From Paenibacillus pabuli (lineage in GTDB: Bacteria; Bacillota; Bacilli; Paenibacillales; Paenibacillaceae), in the NCBI RefSeq assembly GCF_039831995.1, contig NZ_JBDOIO010000003.1, forward strand, positions 3,286,001 through 3,350,000: a stretch of DNA of 64,000 nt, read 5' to 3'. Both the position numbers and the translations under genes were made by a program. The first letter of the stretch is position 1, and each line of letters starts with the position of its first letter. Below are positions 46,936-56,026 of the stretch, piece by piece. The notes under the pieces were generated by a model that did no database searches, was not told where the DNA came from, and saw only the letters and a program-made list of their open reading frames with translations.

Positions 46936-47355
46936 CTACCACAACCGCCCGGCAAGCATGGTAAACCGGATAAACACCAATTCGTCATCTTCCCGCAACT
47001 CCAGTGGTGCATCAAGTTCGGACATTTCCTCATCATTGAGGAACACTTTGTATAGTCCATCTTCATGAGCTAACATTGCCGTTTGGACCGCATGCTCCAG
47101 ATCGGGGATCTCCTCATTGTACACCGCACCAAAACCTACTTTTCCAGATGATCCCTTAAGTTCAATATCCTCAGGCATCAGATAAGTGAGCCACGCTGCA
47201 CTGTTTATCTTGTCCTGAAGAGCGTTCACCTGCACGTGTACCATATATTCGATCAGCTCTCGTAACGTTCCGGTTGTTTCCGGAAGTTCTGTCTTTTGCT
47301 TGGCAAGTGCAGGCTTGCGTTTGCCCAGGCTTTTGACGGTGACCCACACGTTCAT
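46936..47355 (-). CDS. Small protein with MoaD/ubiquitin-like (beta-grasp) appearance, partner of the DUF4132 protein
   Basis: 139 residues, RBS GGGAGGGG. The N-terminal part MNVWVTVKSLGKRKPALAKQ continues with ELPETTGTLRELIEYMV, resembling beta1-beta2-alpha1 of MoaD/ThiS. The end KVFLNDEEMSELDAPLELRE, then DDELVFIRFTMLAGRLW, resembles the last strands of a beta-grasp fold (VNGEE..D..L.DGDEV.F). About 60 residues are inserted between. It ends AGRLW rather than GG, so conjugation would need processing or is absent. First gene of the pair with the 1656-residue protein. Fold assignment is by eye. Confidence 0.6.
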   Translation of the reverse strand: MNVWVTVKSLGKRKPALAKQKTELPETTGTLRELIEYMVHVQVNALQDKINSAAWLTYLMPEDIELKGSSGKVGFGAVYNEEIPDLEHAVQTAMLAHEDGLYKVFLNDEEMSELDAPLELREDDELVFIRFTMLAGRLW

Positions 47356-47538
47356 GATGTCCCCTCCCTTCTTCTATATGAACTGACTAATCGCGTCTCA
47401 GCCAGCCTGATAAAAAAATAAAAATACGTACACATGTACCCCTTATTAGCATCATAAACAATATCCTATCCACAATCATGGGCCATATCTCACGTTTACC
47501 TGAAACCTGCGAACTATTGCACCCCAACGTACTTACGC

Positions 47539-47579
47539 AAAAAAGCCGGGTTGTTCCAATAACCTTGGAACTTCCCAGC
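47539..47579 (-). terminator. Terminator after nasC
   Basis: On the minus strand GCTGGG-AA-GTTCCAA pairs with TTGGAAC-AA-CCCGGC around a 5-nt loop and is followed by TTTTTT. It lies about 50 bp beyond the nasC stop. The rest of 47356-47631 holds only the promoter side of the small upstream gene. Confidence 0.8.
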
Positions 47580-47631
47580 CACTTCAGCAGCCAACCAGAC
47601 CTGATTTGTGTTAACAAAATATATTATTGAT

Positions 47632-49764
47632 TCATCTGACCACTCGCATGGAACGAATCGTGACAGCCGCCGTTTTGAAGCCTGGCATACGGCAGTAAGG
47701 ATCCAGATCAGGCCTTGTCGCCCGATTGACGTTCTGAATACCACCCCAATGCATTGGTACAAACAACGTGTCTTCACGAATGTTTTCCTTGATGCGGGCA
47801 CGAACCGTGAAGCTCCCATGCAGGGATTGAATCTCGACCCACTCGCCGTCCATAATTCGATTACGCGCAGCTGTAGCCGGATGAAGTTCAACAAAATTTT
47901 CTAATTCACGAGCTTCCAGGGTTGGGCTCCGATGGGTTTGTACGCCGGTCAGATAGTGAGGAAGCACGCGGCCATTGGTCAGGATCAAGGGGAATTCCCG
48001 AGAGGTGTCCTGCCAACCCACACTTAACTCACTCGTAAAGGTAGCCCTGCCGTCCTCATGGGCAAACCGATCACTGAACAGCAACCCTTCACCCCCATCC
48101 TCCAGAGAAGCACAGGGCCAATAGATCCCTTTTTCTCTCCGCAGACGCTCATAGGTCATTCCATAGTAATCCGCAACCCCGCCCCGGCTGGCCAGTCTGA
48201 GTTCATTGAAGATGTCCTCGGCACATTCATATTGAAAATAAGGAGCTTTGCCAAGACCGCCAGCAATGGAGCATAGAATATCCCAATCATGACGGGTTTC
48301 TCCTGGTGCCGGTCTACCCTGTTCACGTAACAGAACCCGGCCCTCCAGATTGGTCAGTGTACCTTCGTTCTCCAAATAAGCCGTGACCGGAAGCACCACA
48401 TCAGCCATCTTTGCCGTCTCGGACAGAAACATATCCGCCACGACCAGAAAATCCAGCTTGCGGAGGCCCTCCTCTACCAGGCGTACATTGGGATTGGACA
48501 CGACCGGATTGGAGCCCATCACAAGCAGCGCACGGATCTCCTGTTCATGAACCCGCTCCATCATTTCGTAGGCGGAGACGCCTTTTCCCGGCAAGGTTTC
48601 GGGCGCCACGCCCCAGATGGATGCTACATATGCACGGTCCTGCGCATTCTCTATGGAACGATATCCCGGCAGCTGATCGGCCTTCTGCCCATGCTCTCTT
48701 CCGCCCTGTCCGTTTCCCTGTCCCGTAATCGCACCGTACCCACAGCCTGGTCTGCCAATTTTTCCGGTCGCCAGTACCAGGTTAAGAAAATGACGGACAG
48801 CGAGATGTCCATCCGTTTGCTGCTCCACTCCGCGCGCAGTCATGATCATGCCTGTCTCCGCCTGGCCATAGGCCATTGCGGCCTGACGGATCATGGACAA
48901 GGCCACCCCGCATTGTACTGCGGATTGTTCCAGGTCTATCTCGCTCAGGGCATTCCGCAAACTTTCATACCCTTGGGTTCTTGCATTAACAAAATGCTCA
49001 TTCACCAGCCCGGCTTCCATAATGATCTTCAGCATGATGTTCGCAAGCAGTGCATCCATACCCGGCTTAACCTGCAAATGAAGGTCGGCGATCGCTGCAG
49101 TAGCTGTCTTGCGTGGATCAATAACGATGATATATGCACCATTCTCCTTCGCCTGGTTGAAATAAGGCAGCAGGGTTGGCTGGCACTCTGCAACGTTGGT
49201 CCCTGCAAGCACTATACATTGGGCCCGCGGAATGTCGGACAGACGGAACGTCAGCCCCCGATCCATGCCAAACACTTTACTTCCTGCCGAGGCAGCGGCA
49301 GACATACAGAAGCGTCCGTTATAATCAATGTATCGTGTCCCTAAGGCAACCCTCGCAAATTTACCCAGCAAATAGGCCGTTTCATTCGTCAGGGAACCCC
49401 CTCCATATACACCAATTACATCTGCACCGTATTGATCCTGAAGACTGATAAAACGTCTTGCAATAAGCTCAGAGACTTCATGCCATGATGAAGGTACCAG
49501 TTCACCATCCTGACGAATGAGAGGTTGCAGGAGCCGCTGCCCACTGAGTGCATGCTGATGTGCATTCATGCCTTTGACGCACAATCTTCCCTGTGAGGCT
49601 TCATTAGGCACTCCTTCCACCGTGTATGTGGCACGGCGTTCACCGGCAATGGGCCCTGCAACTTCCTCGACGGTCATTTTGCACTGTACGCTGCAATACG
49701 GGCATTGTGTCTCCCGTACATGCAGTTTTGAAGCAGACGAACTGTGTTCAGTTGATGTCTTCAT
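47632..49764 (-). CDS. nasC: Assimilatory nitrate reductase catalytic subunit
   Basis: About 710 residues from ATG 49764 (MKTSTEHSSSASKLHV). In-frame GTG 49779 and TTG 49800 are other possible starts; the TTG would overlap the nasB stop. Molybdopterin oxidoreductase fold with a [4Fe-4S] site at Cys21, 24, 28 and 62 (CPYCSVQC ... GRLCVKG). Further landmarks are NGRFCMSAAASAGSKVFG, GTNVAECQP, TARGVEQQTDGH and GSNPVVSNPN. The C-terminal lobe has ILTNGRVLPHYLTG and the end HWGGIQNVN. Reduces nitrate to nitrite in the cytoplasm with electrons from NasB. Genes for nitrite reductase are not adjacent. Confidence 0.92.
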   Translation of the reverse strand: MKTSTEHSSSASKLHVRETQCPYCSVQCKMTVEEVAGPIAGERRATYTVEGVPNEASQGRLCVKGMNAHQHALSGQRLLQPLIRQDGELVPSSWHEVSELIARRFISLQDQYGADVIGVYGGGSLTNETAYLLGKFARVALGTRYIDYNGRFCMSAAASAGSKVFGMDRGLTFRLSDIPRAQCIVLAGTNVAECQPTLLPYFNQAKENGAYIIVIDPRKTATAAIADLHLQVKPGMDALLANIMLKIIMEAGLVNEHFVNARTQGYESLRNALSEIDLEQSAVQCGVALSMIRQAAMAYGQAETGMIMTARGVEQQTDGHLAVRHFLNLVLATGKIGRPGCGYGAITGQGNGQGGREHGQKADQLPGYRSIENAQDRAYVASIWGVAPETLPGKGVSAYEMMERVHEQEIRALLVMGSNPVVSNPNVRLVEEGLRKLDFLVVADMFLSETAKMADVVLPVTAYLENEGTLTNLEGRVLLREQGRPAPGETRHDWDILCSIAGGLGKAPYFQYECAEDIFNELRLASRGGVADYYGMTYERLRREKGIYWPCASLEDGGEGLLFSDRFAHEDGRATFTSELSVGWQDTSREFPLILTNGRVLPHYLTGVQTHRSPTLEARELENFVELHPATAARNRIMDGEWVEIQSLHGSFTVRARIKENIREDTLFVPMHWGGIQNVNRATRPDLDPYCRMPGFKTAAVTIRSMRVVR

Positions 49765-49796
49765 TCCCCTCTTCACTCCCTTCCCTGCCTTTTCGA

Positions 49797-51920
49797 TCAA
49801 GTAAGAGTCACTTCACTTACGGTTCTGCCCGCCAGCACGTTCTGGAATGGTTGATCCAGCAGGTTCTCGCGGATCGATATGAATCCCATTCGCTCTACCC
49901 ATGCCCAGAGGGGTTCATCATACCAGGCCGTCCGGCGATACCACTCCAGGCATGCCGAGATAAGTCGTTCAGCATCTTCTTCCGCCTCGGCAAGTCCGAG
50001 AAGCCCCCCCTCTTTTACCGGAAGGGCTGCATGACCCCCCGCGTAAATTTCCCAGCCAGCGGGAGATTCCTGCAAACCGATATCCTGCACAACCGGGCTT
50101 ACCCAGGAGCTTGCTCCACCCGACATGGCCACCCTCACAGAAGCGGGCATCTCTGCATTCATCCACCTGAACCGAAGTTCCTCTGCCATTGCTTTGAACT
50201 TCATATCATCGGCATGAACCTCGATACCTGTAACAGCCCCCCGCAAGGTATCATTCCGGTTTCCAGCCCGATCTGGCTGCTGCATATTCATCCATTTTCC
50301 GGATATCTTCAAATAATAACGAAGTGCTGGTTGGCAGATATGGCAGCCTTCTTCTGTTCTCCAGTCCAGCCTTTGCATGATTCTTCTCATTCCATCTCCC
50401 TCCGACACCAGATCGAGCGCTTCTTTCAGCGAGGCATGACTCAGATCCGTACAGCTGCAAATGGGCCATTCTGCCGTTTTCGCTTCCATTGCTGTTCCGC
50501 TTGCACTACCGCCGTTTTTCTGAAGATGCAGGGTATGCTTCACCAGTGCCGCCACCATCGGTCGGCATCCGCCGCAGGAACCGGAGGCTTTGGTATGCTC
50601 TTTAACCTGCTCAGCAGTCTGCAGCCCCTTGTCCTGTATAGCTCTCATGATCGTCACTTTGCTAACATGGTTACATGCGCAGACCGTCTCCAGATCAGGC
50701 AATGCAGCTGCAGCCATCTCTGCTGGATTCGTCCCTTCCTCGCGCGGAGCGAGTTCCTCAACGCTTGCCCCCCGCTGAACGAGTCCCAACAGGCTCGCAC
50801 TCTCTGTCGTATCCCCGAACAGGATCGCTCCGCTTACGAACCCTTCCTTCATTAATACTTTTTTATACGTTCCGCGAATGCCATCAAGCATCTGTACAGC
50901 CGTCTGCATATCTTCTCCGCTAATATTTCCGGCCGAGAACACGTCAACGCCAGAGACCTTCAGTTGGGAATATGGAATAGAACCCTTATACTCTGTTGTC
51001 TCCTGTCCACATAAAAAACGTGCAAGTACCTTACCCTGCTCATACAGGGGAGCGACCAGACCATAACTGATCCCCCGATGTTCGGCACATTCACCGACAG
51101 CATAAACATCCGGTACGCTGGTACGCATATAATCGTCAACCACGATCGCCCGATTGGTCCTGATTCCGCTCCGCCTGGCCACGTCGACATTGGGGCGAAT
51201 GCCCACGGCAACAACGACTACCTGTGCTTCAAGCTTGGTTCCATCTGTAAATTGAAGTCCCTGAACCTGGGACCGGCCCATGATCTTCTGTGTGTTTTTG
51301 GCTAACAGGAACGACATGCCCTGAGCTTCCAGCTCGTGCTGAAGCATGGTCGCTGCCTGCAGATCCAATTGTCGGTTCATAATATAAGGTGCGTTATGGA
51401 CCACAACTGCTTCCATTCCCAAATGCAGCAGCCCTCGGGCAGCTTCAAGTCCAAGCAATCCGCCACCAATAACGGCTGCCTTACGATGTACTTTGGAATA
51501 ATCAGACATACGCGTGCAGTCATCTATCGTGCGGAAGGACATCACCCTCTCTTTATCCACGCCAGGAATAGGCGGAATAAACGGGGCAGAGCCTGTGGCC
51601 AGGATTAGAATATCGTAGGAATCCTTCATCCCGGATAACGTTTCAATCGTTTTGGACTGAGTATGAATCTTGTGGACCATCTCTCCCGCACACAGCCGGA
51701 TGCCATGCTCCTCATACCAGCTCCAGTCGTTAATAATAATGTCCTGCAGATCGTGTTCACCCTGTAAAACTTTGGATAACATGATCCGATTGTAATTGGG
51801 ACGTGGTTCATTTCCATAGATGACAATCTCATAGGTATCCGGAGATACTGCAATAATCTCTTCCACACACCTAACACCTGCCATCCCGTTTCCGATAACG
51901 ACCAGTCTCTTCTTGCTCAT
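49797..51920 (-). CDS. nasB: Assimilatory nitrate reductase electron-transfer subunit (NirB-like flavoprotein)
   Basis: 707 residues from ATG 51920 (MSKKRLVVIGNGMAGVRCVE) after CAGGGGGC; the frame stays open to 52025, inside the leader. FAD/NAD part with GNGMAG and GGGLLGLEAARG. Two BFD-like [2Fe-2S] modules have CACN...GSCGGC and CSCT...GCHIC. A C-terminal stretch resembles the sulfite/nitrite reductase ferredoxin half-domain without the siroheme cysteines. Order and length match B. subtilis NasB closely. It passes electrons from NADH to NasC. Transcribed with nasC from a GlnR-box promoter and a leader with a terminator. Confidence 0.92.
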   Translation of the reverse strand: MSKKRLVVIGNGMAGVRCVEEIIAVSPDTYEIVIYGNEPRPNYNRIMLSKVLQGEHDLQDIIINDWSWYEEHGIRLCAGEMVHKIHTQSKTIETLSGMKDSYDILILATGSAPFIPPIPGVDKERVMSFRTIDDCTRMSDYSKVHRKAAVIGGGLLGLEAARGLLHLGMEAVVVHNAPYIMNRQLDLQAATMLQHELEAQGMSFLLAKNTQKIMGRSQVQGLQFTDGTKLEAQVVVVAVGIRPNVDVARRSGIRTNRAIVVDDYMRTSVPDVYAVGECAEHRGISYGLVAPLYEQGKVLARFLCGQETTEYKGSIPYSQLKVSGVDVFSAGNISGEDMQTAVQMLDGIRGTYKKVLMKEGFVSGAILFGDTTESASLLGLVQRGASVEELAPREEGTNPAEMAAAALPDLETVCACNHVSKVTIMRAIQDKGLQTAEQVKEHTKASGSCGGCRPMVAALVKHTLHLQKNGGSASGTAMEAKTAEWPICSCTDLSHASLKEALDLVSEGDGMRRIMQRLDWRTEEGCHICQPALRYYLKISGKWMNMQQPDRAGNRNDTLRGAVTGIEVHADDMKFKAMAEELRFRWMNAEMPASVRVAMSGGASSWVSPVVQDIGLQESPAGWEIYAGGHAALPVKEGGLLGLAEAEEDAERLISACLEWYRRTAWYDEPLWAWVERMGFISIRENLLDQPFQNVLAGRTVSEVTLT

Positions 51921-51965
51921 GGGCTGCCCCCTGTCTCTGTTACATGTTGAATTAAAAGTAAACAG

Positions 51966-51996
51966 AAAAATCCCTTCTCCATGAATCGGAAAAGGG
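51966..51996 (-). terminator. Intrinsic terminator in the nasB leader
   Basis: On the minus strand CCCTTTTCC pairs with GGAGAAGGG (one G-U) around a 7-nt loop, followed by ATTTTTCTG. It stands ~45 bp before the nasB start and after the hexaloop hairpin 52011-52036, so it can act as an attenuator relieved by antitermination. Confidence 0.75.
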
Positions 51997-52010
51997 CACC
52001 GTTGCCTCCG

Positions 52011-52036
52011 GAAATCACACGCCATTGTGTGATTTC
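52011..52036 (-). promoter_or_regulatory. ANTAR-type hexaloop hairpin in the nasB leader
   Basis: Perfect 10-bp stem GAAATCACAC / GTGTGATTTC with hexaloop AATGGC on the minus strand. A at loop position 1 and G at position 4 are the bases known to be recognised by ANTAR-domain antiterminators. A terminator follows 14 nt later. A weak GATT/AATC stem upstream could be the first hairpin of the usual pair, but it would lie before the predicted transcription start. Confidence 0.6.
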
Positions 52037-52047
52037 ATATTAGATTC

Positions 52048-52087
52048 AGATTACGGCAATCCATAGTTAATGTCAACAAAATTAACA
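52048..52087 (-). promoter_or_regulatory. nasB promoter with GlnR/TnrA box
   Basis: TTGACA (52071-52076) and TAATCT (52048-52053) are 17 bp apart on the minus strand. The -35 is the 3' half of TGTTAATTTTGTTGACA (52071-52087), a perfect match to TGTNA-N7-TNACA. Overlap with the -35 predicts repression by GlnR when nitrogen is plentiful, or TnrA control. Confidence 0.65.
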
Positions 52088-52132
52088 CATAAATCTGGAT
52101 AACGAATCAAAATGATTTATTTCAAAATTTAA

Positions 52133-52172
52133 TGTTATTTTTCTTGACATAAATAAATTCTCTTTTTATAAT
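52133..52172 (+). promoter_or_regulatory. nasA promoter with GlnR/TnrA box
   Basis: Consensus sigma-A promoter: TTGACA (52144-52149), 17 bp, TATAAT (52167-52172). The -35 is the 3' half of TGTTATTTTTCTTGACA (52133-52149), again a perfect TGTNA-N7-TNACA box. The arrangement mirrors that of the nasB promoter. Confidence 0.75.
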
Positions 52173-52182
52173 TTGAATCAAA

Positions 52183-52232
52183 ATCACCGTGCTGTGATCA
52201 AATCAGGTGCAGGACACAATGACGTGTCCTGC
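52183..52232 (+). ncRNA. Two-hairpin ANTAR-type leader element of nasA
   Basis: First hairpin: ATCAC / GTGAT with hexaloop CGTGCT (52183-52198). Linker of 10 nt. Second hairpin: perfect 9-bp stem GCAGGACAC / GTGTCCTGC with hexaloop AATGAC (52209-52232). The second loop has the ANTAR-contact bases A1 and G4; the first has only G4. The predicted transcript would begin at about 52179, directly before the first hairpin. A terminator follows 12 nt after. Confidence 0.65.
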
Positions 52233-52244
52233 CTGCCGGCAATG

Positions 52245-52288
52245 AGGCCGCAAATCGTTCATGATCTGGACGAATTGCGGCCTTTTTC
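52245..52288 (+). terminator. Intrinsic terminator in the nasA leader
   Basis: AGGCCGCAA pairs with TTGCGGCCT and further inward (TCGT/ACGA, one mismatch between), followed by TTTTTC. It stands 58 bp before the nasA start codon, so nasA expression needs read-through. Fits an ANTAR antitermination switch with the two hairpins before it. Confidence 0.85.
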
Positions 52289-52346
52289 TGCCCGAACTGC
52301 ACAGAGACAGGTTAAGATTATTCAATTGGATGAGGAGCGATGCTGA

Positions 52347-53579
52347 ATGATGGAGAGCAAAAGTTTTTGGAAGAGCGGGCATAAGCCCAGTCTCTTCGGG
52401 GCATTTCTGTATTTTGACATCAGTTTTATGATCTGGGGCATGCTTGGTCCGCTTGCGGTTGTTATTGCAATGGACTACCCGATGACCCCTCTGGAGAAAG
52501 CCAACCTGGTGGCACTGCCCATCCTTGGCGGCTCCATTCTTAGACTTGTCCTTGGCTTTATGTCTGATTATATCGGTCCAAAACTCACGGCGCAGATCGG
52601 AATGGGAGTAACACTTGTTCCCTTACTGCTAGGCTGGCTGTGGGTTGACTCGCTTAGCCAGTTATACGTTGTTGCTCTTCTGCTTGGTGTCGCCGGTGCT
52701 TCCTTTGCCGCTGCCCTTCCACTTGCGGGTCAATGGTATCCCAAGGAGCATCAAGGACTGGCTATGGGAATCGCCGGAGCAGGGAATAGTGGGACAGTGC
52801 TCGCTACCCTTTTTGCCAACCGACTGGCTACTCATTTCGGCAGCTGGGAAGTCGTTTTCGGACTCGCTATCATTCCAATCGTGGTCGTTTTCATCCTTTT
52901 CTCCATCTTTGCCCGTAACAGTCCTAACCGACCAGCACCGAAGAAGCTATCTGAATACGGCACCTTGCTGAAACAAAGGGATGCCTGGGTATTCTGTGCA
53001 TTTTATTGTGTAACCTTTGGCGGTTTCGTCGGGTTGTGCAACTATCTGACCATCTTCTTCAATACCCAATATGGCCTGTCGCCTGTTCGGGCCGCTGACA
53101 TCACAACCTTTTGCGTCATTGCAGGCAGCTTCTTCCGGCCTGTTGGTGGCTACTTGGCAGACAAAATCGGTGGTACGCGAATGCTAACATTCCTCTACAC
53201 GGGGGCCTGCATCATGCTTGTGGGCGTGTCTTTCCTCCCACCTCTTCCCGTTGTGGTCGTGATGTTATTCCTGGGCATGATGTGCCTTGGGGCGGGAAAC
53301 GGTTCCGTGTTCCAGCTGGTTCCGCAGCGATTCGGCAATGAAATCGGTCTGATGACGGGCATTGTCGGCGCGGCAGGAGGTCTGGGCGGATATGCACTCC
53401 CGCTGATTCTCGGTCAATTGTACAGTTCCTATCAGTCCTATACGCCCGGATTCGTAATCCTTAGTCTTATTGCGGCCGCATCCATGCTGCTCGTATTGAT
53501 TATGCAATCCAAATGGCGCGGCCAATGGCTGAAGAAGTCCTTTACGAGCAAAACGGAATCAACATCCCTCTCTTCCTAG
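52347..53579 (+). CDS. nasA: Nitrate/nitrite MFS transporter
   Basis: 410 residues, 12 transmembrane helices, NarK/NasA group of the major facilitator superfamily. The two nitrate-signature segments are visible: AGAGNSGTVLATLFANRLAT in TM5 and GAGNGSVFQLVPQRFGNEIG in TM11 region. Arg residues in GGSILRLVLGFMSDYIG and SFFRPVGGYLADKIGG are the usual substrate ligands. RBS GAGGAG 9 nt before the ATG. Imports nitrate for NasBC, encoded divergently, the same arrangement as in B. subtilis. Confidence 0.92.
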   Translation: MMESKSFWKSGHKPSLFGAFLYFDISFMIWGMLGPLAVVIAMDYPMTPLEKANLVALPILGGSILRLVLGFMSDYIGPKLTAQIGMGVTLVPLLLGWLWVDSLSQLYVVALLLGVAGASFAAALPLAGQWYPKEHQGLAMGIAGAGNSGTVLATLFANRLATHFGSWEVVFGLAIIPIVVVFILFSIFARNSPNRPAPKKLSEYGTLLKQRDAWVFCAFYCVTFGGFVGLCNYLTIFFNTQYGLSPVRAADITTFCVIAGSFFRPVGGYLADKIGGTRMLTFLYTGACIMLVGVSFLPPLPVVVVMLFLGMMCLGAGNGSVFQLVPQRFGNEIGLMTGIVGAAGGLGGYALPLILGQLYSSYQSYTPGFVILSLIAAASMLLVLIMQSKWRGQWLKKSFTSKTESTSLSS

Positions 53580-53610
53580 GCGATCAGGTTCACCCATAGC
53601 ACAACCTGAA

Positions 53611-53650
53611 AAGAGAACAGCACAGCCCTTTGGCTGCTGCTGTTCTCTTG
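53611..53650. terminator. Terminator between nasA and fabF
   Basis: AAGAGAACAGCA pairs with TGCTGTTCTCTT, with AGCC/GGCT inside (53611-53649). On the minus strand TTTTC follows the stem, so fabF is the better-served gene; nasA may use it too. Confidence 0.7.
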
Positions 53651-53653
53651 TTG

Positions 53654-54898
53654 TCAGGATGAATATTTACGAAATACGACAACGGCATTATGTCCGCCAA
53701 AACCGAAAGAATTGGACATTCCGATCTGCATTTCCACCTCTCTGGCTTCATTAGGCACATAATCCAAATCACAGTCCGGGTCCTGCTGCTCCTGATTGAT
53801 GGTTGGTGGAATGAGGCCATGCTGTAAGGTTTGGATCAGTGAAATGGCTTCCGCTCCACCCGCGGCTCCCAACATGTGCCCAGTCATCGATTTGTTAGCC
53901 GTTACGGGAATGCGATAAGCTGCATCACCGAAAAGTTGCTTGATAGCTCTGGTCTCCGATAGGTCTCCCGCTTCGGTACTGGTCGCATGGGCGTTTATCA
54001 CATCGACTTCATGGGGCTCAAGCTTCGCATCAGCAAGAGCCGCTCTCATTGCCAGAAATGCTCCTCGTCCTTCCGGGTGGGTTGCAACCATGTGATAGGC
54101 GTCTGAACTGGCTCCGTATCCCACAATTTCAGCGAGAATATTCGCGTTTCTAGCCAGGGCATGTGATAGAGATTCCACCACCACAATCCCCGCACCTTCT
54201 GCCATAACAAAGCCATCTCTGCCTGCATCGAACGGTCTGCTTGCCTTTTCATAGGTTTCGTTTCTAGTCGATAATGCGGTGGCATTACCGAAGCTGGCCA
54301 GCGAAACTTCCGTTATGGCCGCTTCGGTTCCCCCTGCAATAATGACATCTGCGCCTCCGTCACGAATCAGCCGGAAAGCTTCACCTATGGCTGTATTCCC
54401 GATTGAACAGGCAGTTACAGGGGAAAGGGTCGGACCCCAACATCCGAATTTCATGCTTACCATGGCTGCTGCCATGTTGGAAATCATCATCGGCACAAGG
54501 GTTGGACTCACCCGGCCGGGGCCACGTTCTGACAACAGCTTCCCTTGCTCCATCAATGTTTGAATGCCGCCGATACCGGAACCAATATATACTCCAACCC
54601 GCTCTCTGTCCACTTTCTCCATATCCAGACCCGAATGTACAAGAGCGTCGTCAGCTGCTGCTACAGCGAACTGGCAAAATCGGTCCATACGGCGGGCTTC
54701 CTTGCGTCCGAAGCGGCCCTCTCCGTCAAAATCCCGGACGACACCGGCCATTTTGGTTTTATATGAAGTGGTATCGAAGCTGTCGATTAATGATATTCCT
54801 GATTTCCCTTTCACGAGTCCGTTCCAAAATGTATCTACATCATTCCCCAGCGGCGAGATGATTCCCATACCCGTAATCACAACACGTTCGCGTTCCAT
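53654..54898 (-). CDS. fabF: 3-oxoacyl-[ACP] synthase II
   Basis: 414 residues, normal KAS II length. Catalytic triad Cys164 (VTACSIGNTAIG), His304 (NAHATSTEAGD) and His341 (KSMTGHMLGAAGG) are intact, with the Gly-rich GFGGHNAVVVF end. RBS TAAGGAGG. Elongates acyl-ACP by two carbons. It is not next to acpP or other fab genes, so it may be a second copy of the housekeeping enzyme or serve a special lipid. Divergent from a broken MmyB-type regulator. Confidence 0.92.
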   Translation of the reverse strand: MERERVVITGMGIISPLGNDVDTFWNGLVKGKSGISLIDSFDTTSYKTKMAGVVRDFDGEGRFGRKEARRMDRFCQFAVAAADDALVHSGLDMEKVDRERVGVYIGSGIGGIQTLMEQGKLLSERGPGRVSPTLVPMMISNMAAAMVSMKFGCWGPTLSPVTACSIGNTAIGEAFRLIRDGGADVIIAGGTEAAITEVSLASFGNATALSTRNETYEKASRPFDAGRDGFVMAEGAGIVVVESLSHALARNANILAEIVGYGASSDAYHMVATHPEGRGAFLAMRAALADAKLEPHEVDVINAHATSTEAGDLSETRAIKQLFGDAAYRIPVTANKSMTGHMLGAAGGAEAISLIQTLQHGLIPPTINQEQQDPDCDLDYVPNEAREVEMQIGMSNSFGFGGHNAVVVFRKYSS

Positions 54899-55040
54899 AT
54901 CTTACTCATCCTCCTTAGCCATTTCGTGCTACCCGACTGAACTTCTGCATTTATATTGGCACGTGCAGTATCCTATTACAAGTTGTCAATTATAATAGTA
55001 TAATGACTACCATGATAAAATGAGGTTGGGGTGGAATAAG

Positions 55041-55906
55041 ATGAACCAGGATGTCAGGCTTCAGGCATTATCCGTATTTTTGAAAACACAACGTGCCAAA
55101 ATTGCTCCCGCAGCGGTCGGTTTGCCGGAAGGTACCCGGCGCAGAACACCAGGTTTGAGAAGAGAAGAGGTCGCCCAATTGGCTGGCGTAAGTACGACTT
55201 GGTACACCTGGCTTGAACAGGGAAGGGATATCCAGGTATCTCATTCGGTGCTGGATAACATTGCTTCCGCACTCAAACTGACCCCGGATGAACGCAAGTA
55301 CTTGTTCTCTCTTGCCATGGAGCATTACTCGGAGCTGCATATCCCTGAGGAAGAACCTTACCAGCTCCATCCTTCCCTGCAAAAAATACTGCAGGAGCTC
55401 CAGAATTGTCCACCATCATTTCCGATCGCCGCTGCTACATTGTTGGCTGGAATGAGGCAGCCAGGCATGTCTTCATCGATTTTGAGCAGATTCCTGCGGA
55501 ACAGCGAAATATGATCAGTCTATTATTTGAACGAAAGGAATTTCGGAGACTGGCGGTAAACTGGGAGGATTTTGTCCTCGGATACCTTGCGATCTTCCGT
55601 GCCTATTACGGCCAATATGTCGATGATGAATGGTACAATCTGTTTCTGAATGAAATGATGGATCGATATCCGGAGTTCCAGTCCCTGTGGAAACAAAGCA
55701 GCGTGAGCAGTGCACCAGATGTACTGATTGAATTCAGACATTCCAGAGCCGGCAAAATGTTGTTCGACCTGACCTCGTTACAGGTGCAGGGGAATACCGA
55801 TCTGCGGTGCAGCATCTACACACCAGCACAGGATACGGCCACCGAACGGAAATTGATGCGGCTTATGGAACGGGAGAAAGAACGTCAAGCCAAACCTAAC
55901 GTTTAA
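55041..55906 (+). pseudogene. MmyB-type XRE-family regulator, split by a frameshift
   Basis: First part from ATG 55041 (RBS GGGGTGG): HTH with LKTQRAKIAPAAVGLPEGTR, then TPGLRREEVAQLAGVSTTWY and TWLEQGRDIQVS, the usual start of the family. It runs in frame to QNCP near 55412. The ligand-binding part continues in another frame as TIISDRRCYIVGWNEAARHV through to ENREKERQAKPNV-like end at 55906. Reading TGTCCACC as TGTCCCACC restores one protein of ~288 residues, so one base is missing near 55409-55413. Could be a true mutation or an assembly error. Divergent from fabF. Confidence 0.8.
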
Positions 55907-55930
55907 ACGGCATCCCCATGCAAATAAACG

Positions 55931-55966
55931 AAAAAAAATCCGAGCGGATTCCGCTCGGATCTTTTT
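55931..55966. terminator. Bidirectional terminator
   Basis: ATCCGAGCGG / CCGCTCGGAT (55938-55960) with a 3-nt loop, eight A before and CTTTTT after. It ends the MmyB-type gene and, on the minus strand, the metNIQ operon. Confidence 0.9.
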
Positions 55967-56026
55967 AGTAGATCAGCCAGCCCTTTTCATCGGATACTGA
56001 TCAGATCACTTTATGCATATCAAATG

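Follow-up and report, generated by a model that had tools for sequence, protein, structure and literature searches.

The closest described systems are antiterminators of the ANTAR class acting on RNA leaders. In the accessible text of PMC3369931, ANTAR targets are described as dual hexaloop hairpins (P1 and P2) that follow an A1/G4 rule, with P2 overlapping a terminator, and ANTAR proteins are tied broadly to nitrogen genes, including those for nitrate/nitrite transporters and nitrite reductase. Later work describes a single hexaloop as the minimal binding unit (accessible part of PMC8934654). Histidine kinases and periplasmic-binding-type sensors are known kinds of ANTAR input.

Like the leaders reported here, the nasF leader bound by NasR in Klebsiella has dual A1/G4 hexaloops with a closing C-G pair before a terminator and serves nitrate assimilation (accessible parts of PMC7496416 and PMC3369931), but NasR is a one-component NIT-ANTAR protein, whereas the Paenibacillus protein looks like a pseudo-receiver type without NIT and goes with three leaders. 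NasS-NasT of Paracoccus and others likewise combines a receiver-like ANTAR protein with an adjoining partner gene in nitrate/nitrite assimilation (PMC3795266, as far as accessible); its partner NasS is NrtA-like and nitrate-binding, whereas the conserved Paenibacillus neighbour is TrpD-like. AmiC-AmiR of Pseudomonas aeruginosa shares a receiver-like domain without a phosphorylation role, joined to ANTAR (accessible part of PMC8934654), but AmiC binds amides and the genes controlled are those for amidase. EutV-EutW of Enterococcus faecalis, from the part of its description available, shares the ANTAR fold, the RNA contacts, a mini-hairpin at the terminator base and control of several leaders, and differs in its kinase-driven true receiver, its ethanolamine genes and its P1-P2 linkers (5-12 nt, against 4, 4 and 8 nt here). 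The main text of PMC3369931 makes no mention of Paenibacillus, and our literature search, with most subscription journals outside its reach, returned no paper on ANTAR-controlled Paenibacillus nitrate genes or on a TrpD2-ANTAR pair ("TrpD2-like" is our working label for the neighbour protein).

Dual-hexaloop leaders of the nitrate and nitrite operons

The window, the whole 64-kb stretch of DNA analysed here, is part of contig C3 of a 6.95-Mb genome and contains the divergent narK/nasA (+) and nasB-nasC (-) operons, with the following features.

47632..49764, - strand: nasC, assimilatory nitrate reductase catalytic subunit (NF047855, 1114.7 bits; cut-off 1100)
49797..51920, - strand: nasB, NirB-like NADH/FAD/BFD electron-transfer subunit with a weak NIR_SIR match
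51965..51996, - strand: intrinsic terminator and U tract of the nasB leader (stem-loop 51996-51972; -12.7 kcal/mol)
51995..52006, - strand: P2 hexaloop mini-hairpin GGC-AACGGT-GCC of the nasB leader, overlapping the terminator
52011..52036, - strand: P1 hexaloop hairpin GAAATCACAC-AATGGC-GTGTGATTTC of the nasB leader
52071..52087, - strand: GlnR/TnrA-type box TGTTAATTTTGTTGACA, overlapping the nasB -35
52133..52149, + strand: GlnR/TnrA-type box TGTTATTTTTCTTGACA, overlapping the narK/nasA -35
52144..52172, + strand: narK/nasA promoter TTGACA-17-TATAAT (12/12 match)
52183..52198, + strand: P0 inverted repeat ATCAC-CGTGCT-GTGAT of the narK/nasA leader (sequence read directly)
52209..52232, + strand: P1 hexaloop hairpin GCAGGACAC-AATGAC-GTGTCCTGC of the narK/nasA leader
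52237..52250, + strand: P2 hexaloop mini-hairpin CGGC-AATGAG-GCCG of the narK/nasA leader, overlapping the terminator
52244..52287, + strand: intrinsic terminator and U tract of the narK/nasA leader (stem-loop about 52244-52284; -26.3 kcal/mol)
52347..53579, + strand: narK/nasA, nitrate/nitrite MFS transporter (TIGR00886, 283.8 bits, under the 311.7 cut-off)

Direct reading of the sequence bore out the claim of an earlier note on this DNA that ANTAR-type hexaloop hairpins precede terminators in both nitrate leaders. The note had seen one clear hairpin on the nasB side; the second one, P2, exists at 52006-51995, and because it had been overlooked the nasB leader was thought possibly incomplete. 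The P2 of the narK/nasA leader had escaped the note as well. Both leaders carry the full ANTAR dual-hexaloop motif, with a P1-P2 linker of CTGC (narK/nasA) or CGGA (nasB) and P2 at the 5' base of the terminator. Since P2 shares the 5' arm of the terminator, the two structures are mutually exclusive in each leader.

A script for two A1/G4 hexaloops with an overlapping terminator gave three hits in the window scoring at least 20, two of which, the narK/nasA and nasB leaders, scored at least 28. Sixty dinucleotide shuffles of the 64 kb gave one hit in total, scoring at least 28, a comparison that measures rarity and is no pre-fixed test because the script was written after the sites were seen. 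An Rfam search of 47000-56000 at E ≤ 1 returned no ANTAR-type family and a single sub-threshold match, to NsiR1.

The genome encodes one ANTAR protein, on contig C5 (L002 8838-9431, - strand, 197 aa), which is its sole PF03861 match (69 bits). The earlier note had suggested looking for a NasT or NIT-ANTAR type; the receiver-like N-terminus agrees with the former, and a NIT domain is missing. Divergent from this gene, and starting some 500-600 bases away, is a nirB-nirD-nirC-cobA operon, whose leader has a promoter TTGACA-17-TATAGT (read by eye), P1 CAGTTAC-AACGGC-GTAGCTG, an 8-nt linker, P2 GGC-AATGAA-GCC and a long terminator. P2 and terminator overlap by 7, 2 and 6 nt in the narK, nasB and nirB leaders, respectively. 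The 4-nt linkers of the first two lie at the edge of the range, since linkers in EutV leaders span 5-12 nt and induction dropped when they had 3 or 14 nt.

A covariance model of 43 positions and 8 pairs, from 70 sequences, had three hits at E ≤ 0.1 in the genome studied, namely the narK/nasA, nasB and nirB leaders; the genome-wide RNA scans used Infernal's stricter filters, which weak sites can escape. The model replaced the pattern CACANNGNCGTG, which was too loose (21 matches in this genome, against 49 for a reversed control). The genome has another nirB-nirD-nirC-like set on C4 (L183 1912-5626; about 920-924 kb), which lies outside the three model sites.

We consider it highly probable that a single ANTAR antitermination regulon comprises narK/nasA, nasB-nasC and the unlinked nirB-nirD-nirC-cobA operon; termination would be the default, read-through would follow a signal and GlnR would act as a gate. 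The model sites and the single ANTAR gene lend good support to the earlier proposal of one antiterminator for import and reduction together, which would extend to nirB-nirD-nirC-cobA. Antitermination itself we infer from the leader sequences, and the signal is probably nitrate/nitrite. With no signal, the terminator would form and transcription would stop; with the signal present, the ANTAR protein would grip the loops, hold P1/P2 and block the terminator, and uptake, nitrate reduction and nitrite reduction would be read through jointly. P2 alone amounts to 3.8-5.8 kcal/mol against 12.7-38.0 kcal/mol for the terminators, a weakness from which it follows that read-through would need the protein. 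A separate gate would act on initiation, with GlnR at the box over each -35. The predicted outcome is a two-input gate on three operons, in which the promoter responds to nitrogen limitation and the leader to nitrate/nitrite, and such a regulon would explain nitrate sensing in Paenibacillus. The RNA logic is ordinary; the regulator's neighbour is unusual.

The TrpD-like neighbour of the regulator gene

The gene that immediately follows the ANTAR gene on its strand, after a gap of 0-15 bases according to which start is used, encodes a 359-aa protein with Glycos_transf_3 domains and the database name anthranilate phosphoribosyltransferase. It resembles TrpD and YbiB (TrpD2 family), whose structures its sequence matches, but it scores under the NCBIfam cut-offs for TrpD (150.4 bits, below 199.05), YbiB (103.2, below 185) and PRK07394 (170.7, below 287). 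The trpE-trpD-trpC genes are on C4, their TrpD scores 416.1 bits, and the TrpD-like gene stands apart from them. The model of a 96% identical relative (pLDDT 88.4, pTM 0.89) has TrpD as its best structure match, with TM 0.76-0.86 among the best 50 matches listed. Of 148 relatives, 145 carry the motif AGPYDGR. The accessible part of PMC10123104 presents YbiB as a protein of an SOS operon that binds nucleic acid and interacts with ObgE.

The TrpD-like protein may sense the signal as the regulator's partner, or it may have an accessory role with siroheme-type reductases. Our own opinion is evenly balanced on the following account: the hairpins are ANTAR sites, the neighbour, perhaps an enzyme, shares the transcript as an accessory of such reductases or of nitrogen metabolism, and the ANTAR protein senses alone or via another partner. 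Genomic context was examined in 20 of the 150 ANTAR genomes of the order outside the genus and in all 16 ANTAR genomes of the class outside the order. TrpD-like loci were examined in 20 of the 29 class genomes that have such a gene outside the order, namely G433 and 19 genomes that lack an ANTAR match. Inside the order the evidence speaks against the accessory account: of the 20 loci fetched from outside the genus, 19 have the two genes adjacent and co-directional, and among in-order genomes of the class sample the 29 with ANTAR are also the 29 with a TrpD-like gene, which none of the 9 lacking ANTAR has. Outside the order it gains ground, as only 10 of 29 sampled TrpD-like genomes have ANTAR (19 have the TrpD-like gene only) and a further 6 have ANTAR without a TrpD-like gene. 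Among the 16 outgroup ANTAR loci, a TrpD-like gene lay beside ANTAR in 5 and elsewhere in the stretch in 2 more; three of the 5 paired loci (L191-L193) contained no motif by the script at a score of at least 21.

Four of the 20 TrpD-like loci are near nas/nir genes (L213, L217, L222, L224; L213 and L224 also have a weak ANTAR match) and four are near a reductase or cobA match (L218, L219, L220, L223). In the nine-query comparison the other 12 had neither type of neighbour, L208 having a short NirD match only. Pfam confirmed NIR_SIR in L218 and L223, the two tested among those four, and a TrpD-like gene beside such a reductase favours an accessory role, as do the APS kinase and CobA match in L218 and, in the accessible part of PMC10161378, an annotated anthranilate phosphoribosyltransferase flanking nrtABCD in freshwater picocyanobacteria. 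The closeness of the predicted model to TrpD enzymes would point the same way.

The alternative is that the pseudo-receiver ANTAR protein has the TrpD-like protein as its signal-sensing partner. We hold this tentatively, as possible and somewhat the less likely of the two: a third kind of ANTAR input module, whose phosphoribosyltransferase fold would hold the antiterminator back in the absence of nitrate, nitrite or a related metabolite, and a unifying regulator of nitrate assimilation in the order. Were it so, many anthranilate phosphoribosyltransferase annotations would be misnamed and the pair would be a new kind of ANTAR switch.

In two loci from other Bacilli (L218 3705-8300 and L223 5115-8657) the TrpD-like gene adjoins a gene for a nitrite/sulphite reductase family protein, and L218 additionally has the APS kinase and CobA match. 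TrpD-like proteins also occur on plasmids, where the named features among the matches listed (40 of 62) are TrpD, YbiB or glycosyl transferase; for an A. baumannii plasmid copy a link to nitrate was rejected, since there was no nitrate-assimilation gene among 16 features. Prochlorococcus nirX is not claimed as a relative, since its family is not described in the accessible literature passages.

The ANTAR protein as a probable pseudo-receiver

Among named relatives, the closest to the ANTAR protein are in Paenibacillus (P. pabuli, 89%). Of its 197 residues, 1-124 have a receiver-like fold; Pfam returned PF03861 only, with no receiver match and no NIT domain. EutV, AmiR and Rv1626 were on top of the structure ranking, with AmiR (1qo0) third. 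The RNA contacts of EutV, in the part of its description available, include R142, K143, K149, E160, Y164, R168, M172 and K147. The first seven align with R145, K146, K152, E163, Y167, R171 and M175, each conserved in 39/39 sequences, so that 7 of the 8 contacts are invariant; K147 is not kept, the aligned residue being M150 in 37 of 39.

Column 57, at the end of strand 3, is where we take receivers to keep their phospho-acceptor Asp, and the position before the invariant Pro107 is presumably where they keep a Lys. Column 57 is His in the protein studied here and in 23 of 39 relatives. An ordinary response regulator phosphorylated by a kinase, as EutV is by EutW, would agree with the receiver-like fold of residues 1-124, with the database name (response regulator) and with the Asp at column 57 in 7 of 39 relatives, but this reading is improbable given the His, the complete lack of Lys before Pro107 (0/39), the missing Pfam receiver match and a neighbouring gene that does not encode a kinase. 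The protein looks like a pseudo-receiver of the AmiR/NasT-like type, probably controlled by a partner protein and not by phosphorylation.

The first candidate for that partner is the product of the adjoining TrpD-like gene. No nasS was found at the ANTAR locus; the genome has four PF13379 hits, the one on the same contig about 287 kb off. A 27.5-bit PF13379 hit on C3, about 18 kb beyond narK, was rejected as a sign of NasS; PF13379 was found in 12 of 14 control genomes and so cannot show NasS.

Conservation of the motif, its co-occurrence with the ANTAR gene and the promoter boxes

The earlier note had named two findings that would speak against it, a genome without an ANTAR gene and relatives that lose the loop bases while keeping the stems; neither was found, as the genome has an ANTAR gene, relatives keep the loops and their stems covary. 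The first alignment and covariance model were built from finder hits requiring A1 and G4, so the loop invariance of that alignment is built in. The test was repeated with the loops free in the pattern and the closing pairs and P2 stem fixed. A1 and G4 were then present in both loops at 52 of 52 narK loci, in 51 of 51 nasB matches (from 50 of 52 loci and one further locus of G067, a genome thus counted twice) and in 57 of 57 nirB-pattern matches in 56 loci, where G014 and G074 are each counted twice and the extra match fits the nasB leader of L091. The other hexaloop positions are variable. All eight loci without a narK or nasB finder hit (L056, L078, L079, L084, L087, L089, L094 and L104) were in the loop-free test, and the leaders of all except L104, whose nasB hit had been assigned to the wrong class, were read by eye; a nasB leader was absent in L078 and L079 only, with no nasB match in the sequence stretch examined there.

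For 70 distinct sequences the share of cells that pair is 98.4%, against 85.8% in shuffles; two-sided changes number 76 (23 in shuffles) and the covariation score is 0.387 (0.125 in shuffles). Three pairs show a two-sided change, no more than in the shuffles (3.0). P1 pairs change on both sides inside single operon classes, nasB pair 5 for example occurring as GC, CG, AT and TA; in narK, 9 of 23 distinct sequences leave P1 pair 5 unpaired. The P2 stems hardly vary and thus provide no covariation evidence.

Among 75 genomes of the genus, 55 have ANTAR, 52 the narK protein and 57 the RNA model. The scan of related genomes with a covariance model, an idea of the earlier note, recovered three sites in 45 of these 57, two in 4, one in 5 and four in 3. 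ANTAR and model occurred together in 54 genomes, ANTAR only in 1 (G063), the model only in 3 (G067, G068 and G015, the last with a marginal hit at E 0.076) and neither in 17; in 296 genomes of the order the figures are 167 with both, 25 with ANTAR only, 2 with the model only (G067, G068) and 102 with neither, all of these counts being non-independent events in related genomes. Motif is present by the script in two (G093, G141) of the 25 genomes, out of 192 ANTAR-bearing ones in the order, that have no model hit. The ANTAR match of G063, a genome without the RNA motif, is weak and partial (L113, G063:C1 1200348-1200443, in a 314-aa frame).

G067 and G068 kept the motif and lost the ANTAR gene. 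In G068 the flanks match the C5 region around a gap that takes the TrpD-like start, the ANTAR gene, the nirB leader and the nirB start; in G067 only the far flank of that region matches, and narK, nasB and nasC are kept. Comparison of the loci thus indicates that both strong exceptions miss the regulator together with nitrite-reductase sequence. The G068 gap lies in L155 and L158 (G068:C1 437531-443875), and the narK and nasB leaders of that genome keep their hexaloops.

That the leaders are plain attenuators or transcription-stop signals with incidental hexaloops is hardly credible: the terminators are strong by themselves, which speaks for it, but the loop bases are fixed, the stems covary in all classes and the motif tracks the ANTAR gene.

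The second input of the proposed regulon would act at the promoter. A TGTNAN7TNACA box overlaps the -35 of all three promoters of this genome (that of nirB read by eye), and two of the three matches in the 64 kb are the narK/nasA and nasB boxes. A box was found up to 130 nt upstream of P1 in 44 of 48 narK, 49 of 49 nasB and 37 of 51 nirB leaders, although some of the nasB and nirB matches are 108-129 nt away and may serve another promoter. ChIP-qPCR in P. polymyxa WLY78 placed GlnR on the nasA, nasD1 and nasD2EF promoters (accessible part of PMC9948412), a study of these promoters in whose accessible text "antitermin" does not occur. Two related loci, L087 and L089, contain the nasA and nasD2 sites printed there; the second of these sites precedes nirB and falls outside TGTNAN7TNACA, which accounts for some misses. 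By analogy, GlnR would gate initiation in this genome too.

A second ANTAR protein, of 183-184 aa, is encoded in six genomes of the genus (G012, G030, G031, G047, G065 and G071; including L120 and L121), all of which have three RNA-model hits each. Just 3' of the predicted transcription start of narK leaders is the P0 site, which forms a hexaloop hairpin in 45 of 52 leaders, its stem exactly ATCAC/GTGAT in 43 of the 45. Over this nearly fixed stem the loop varies (A1 and G4 in 32 of the 45 hexaloops; CGTGCT in this genome), and P0 could serve as a third hexaloop or as an operator in the DNA.
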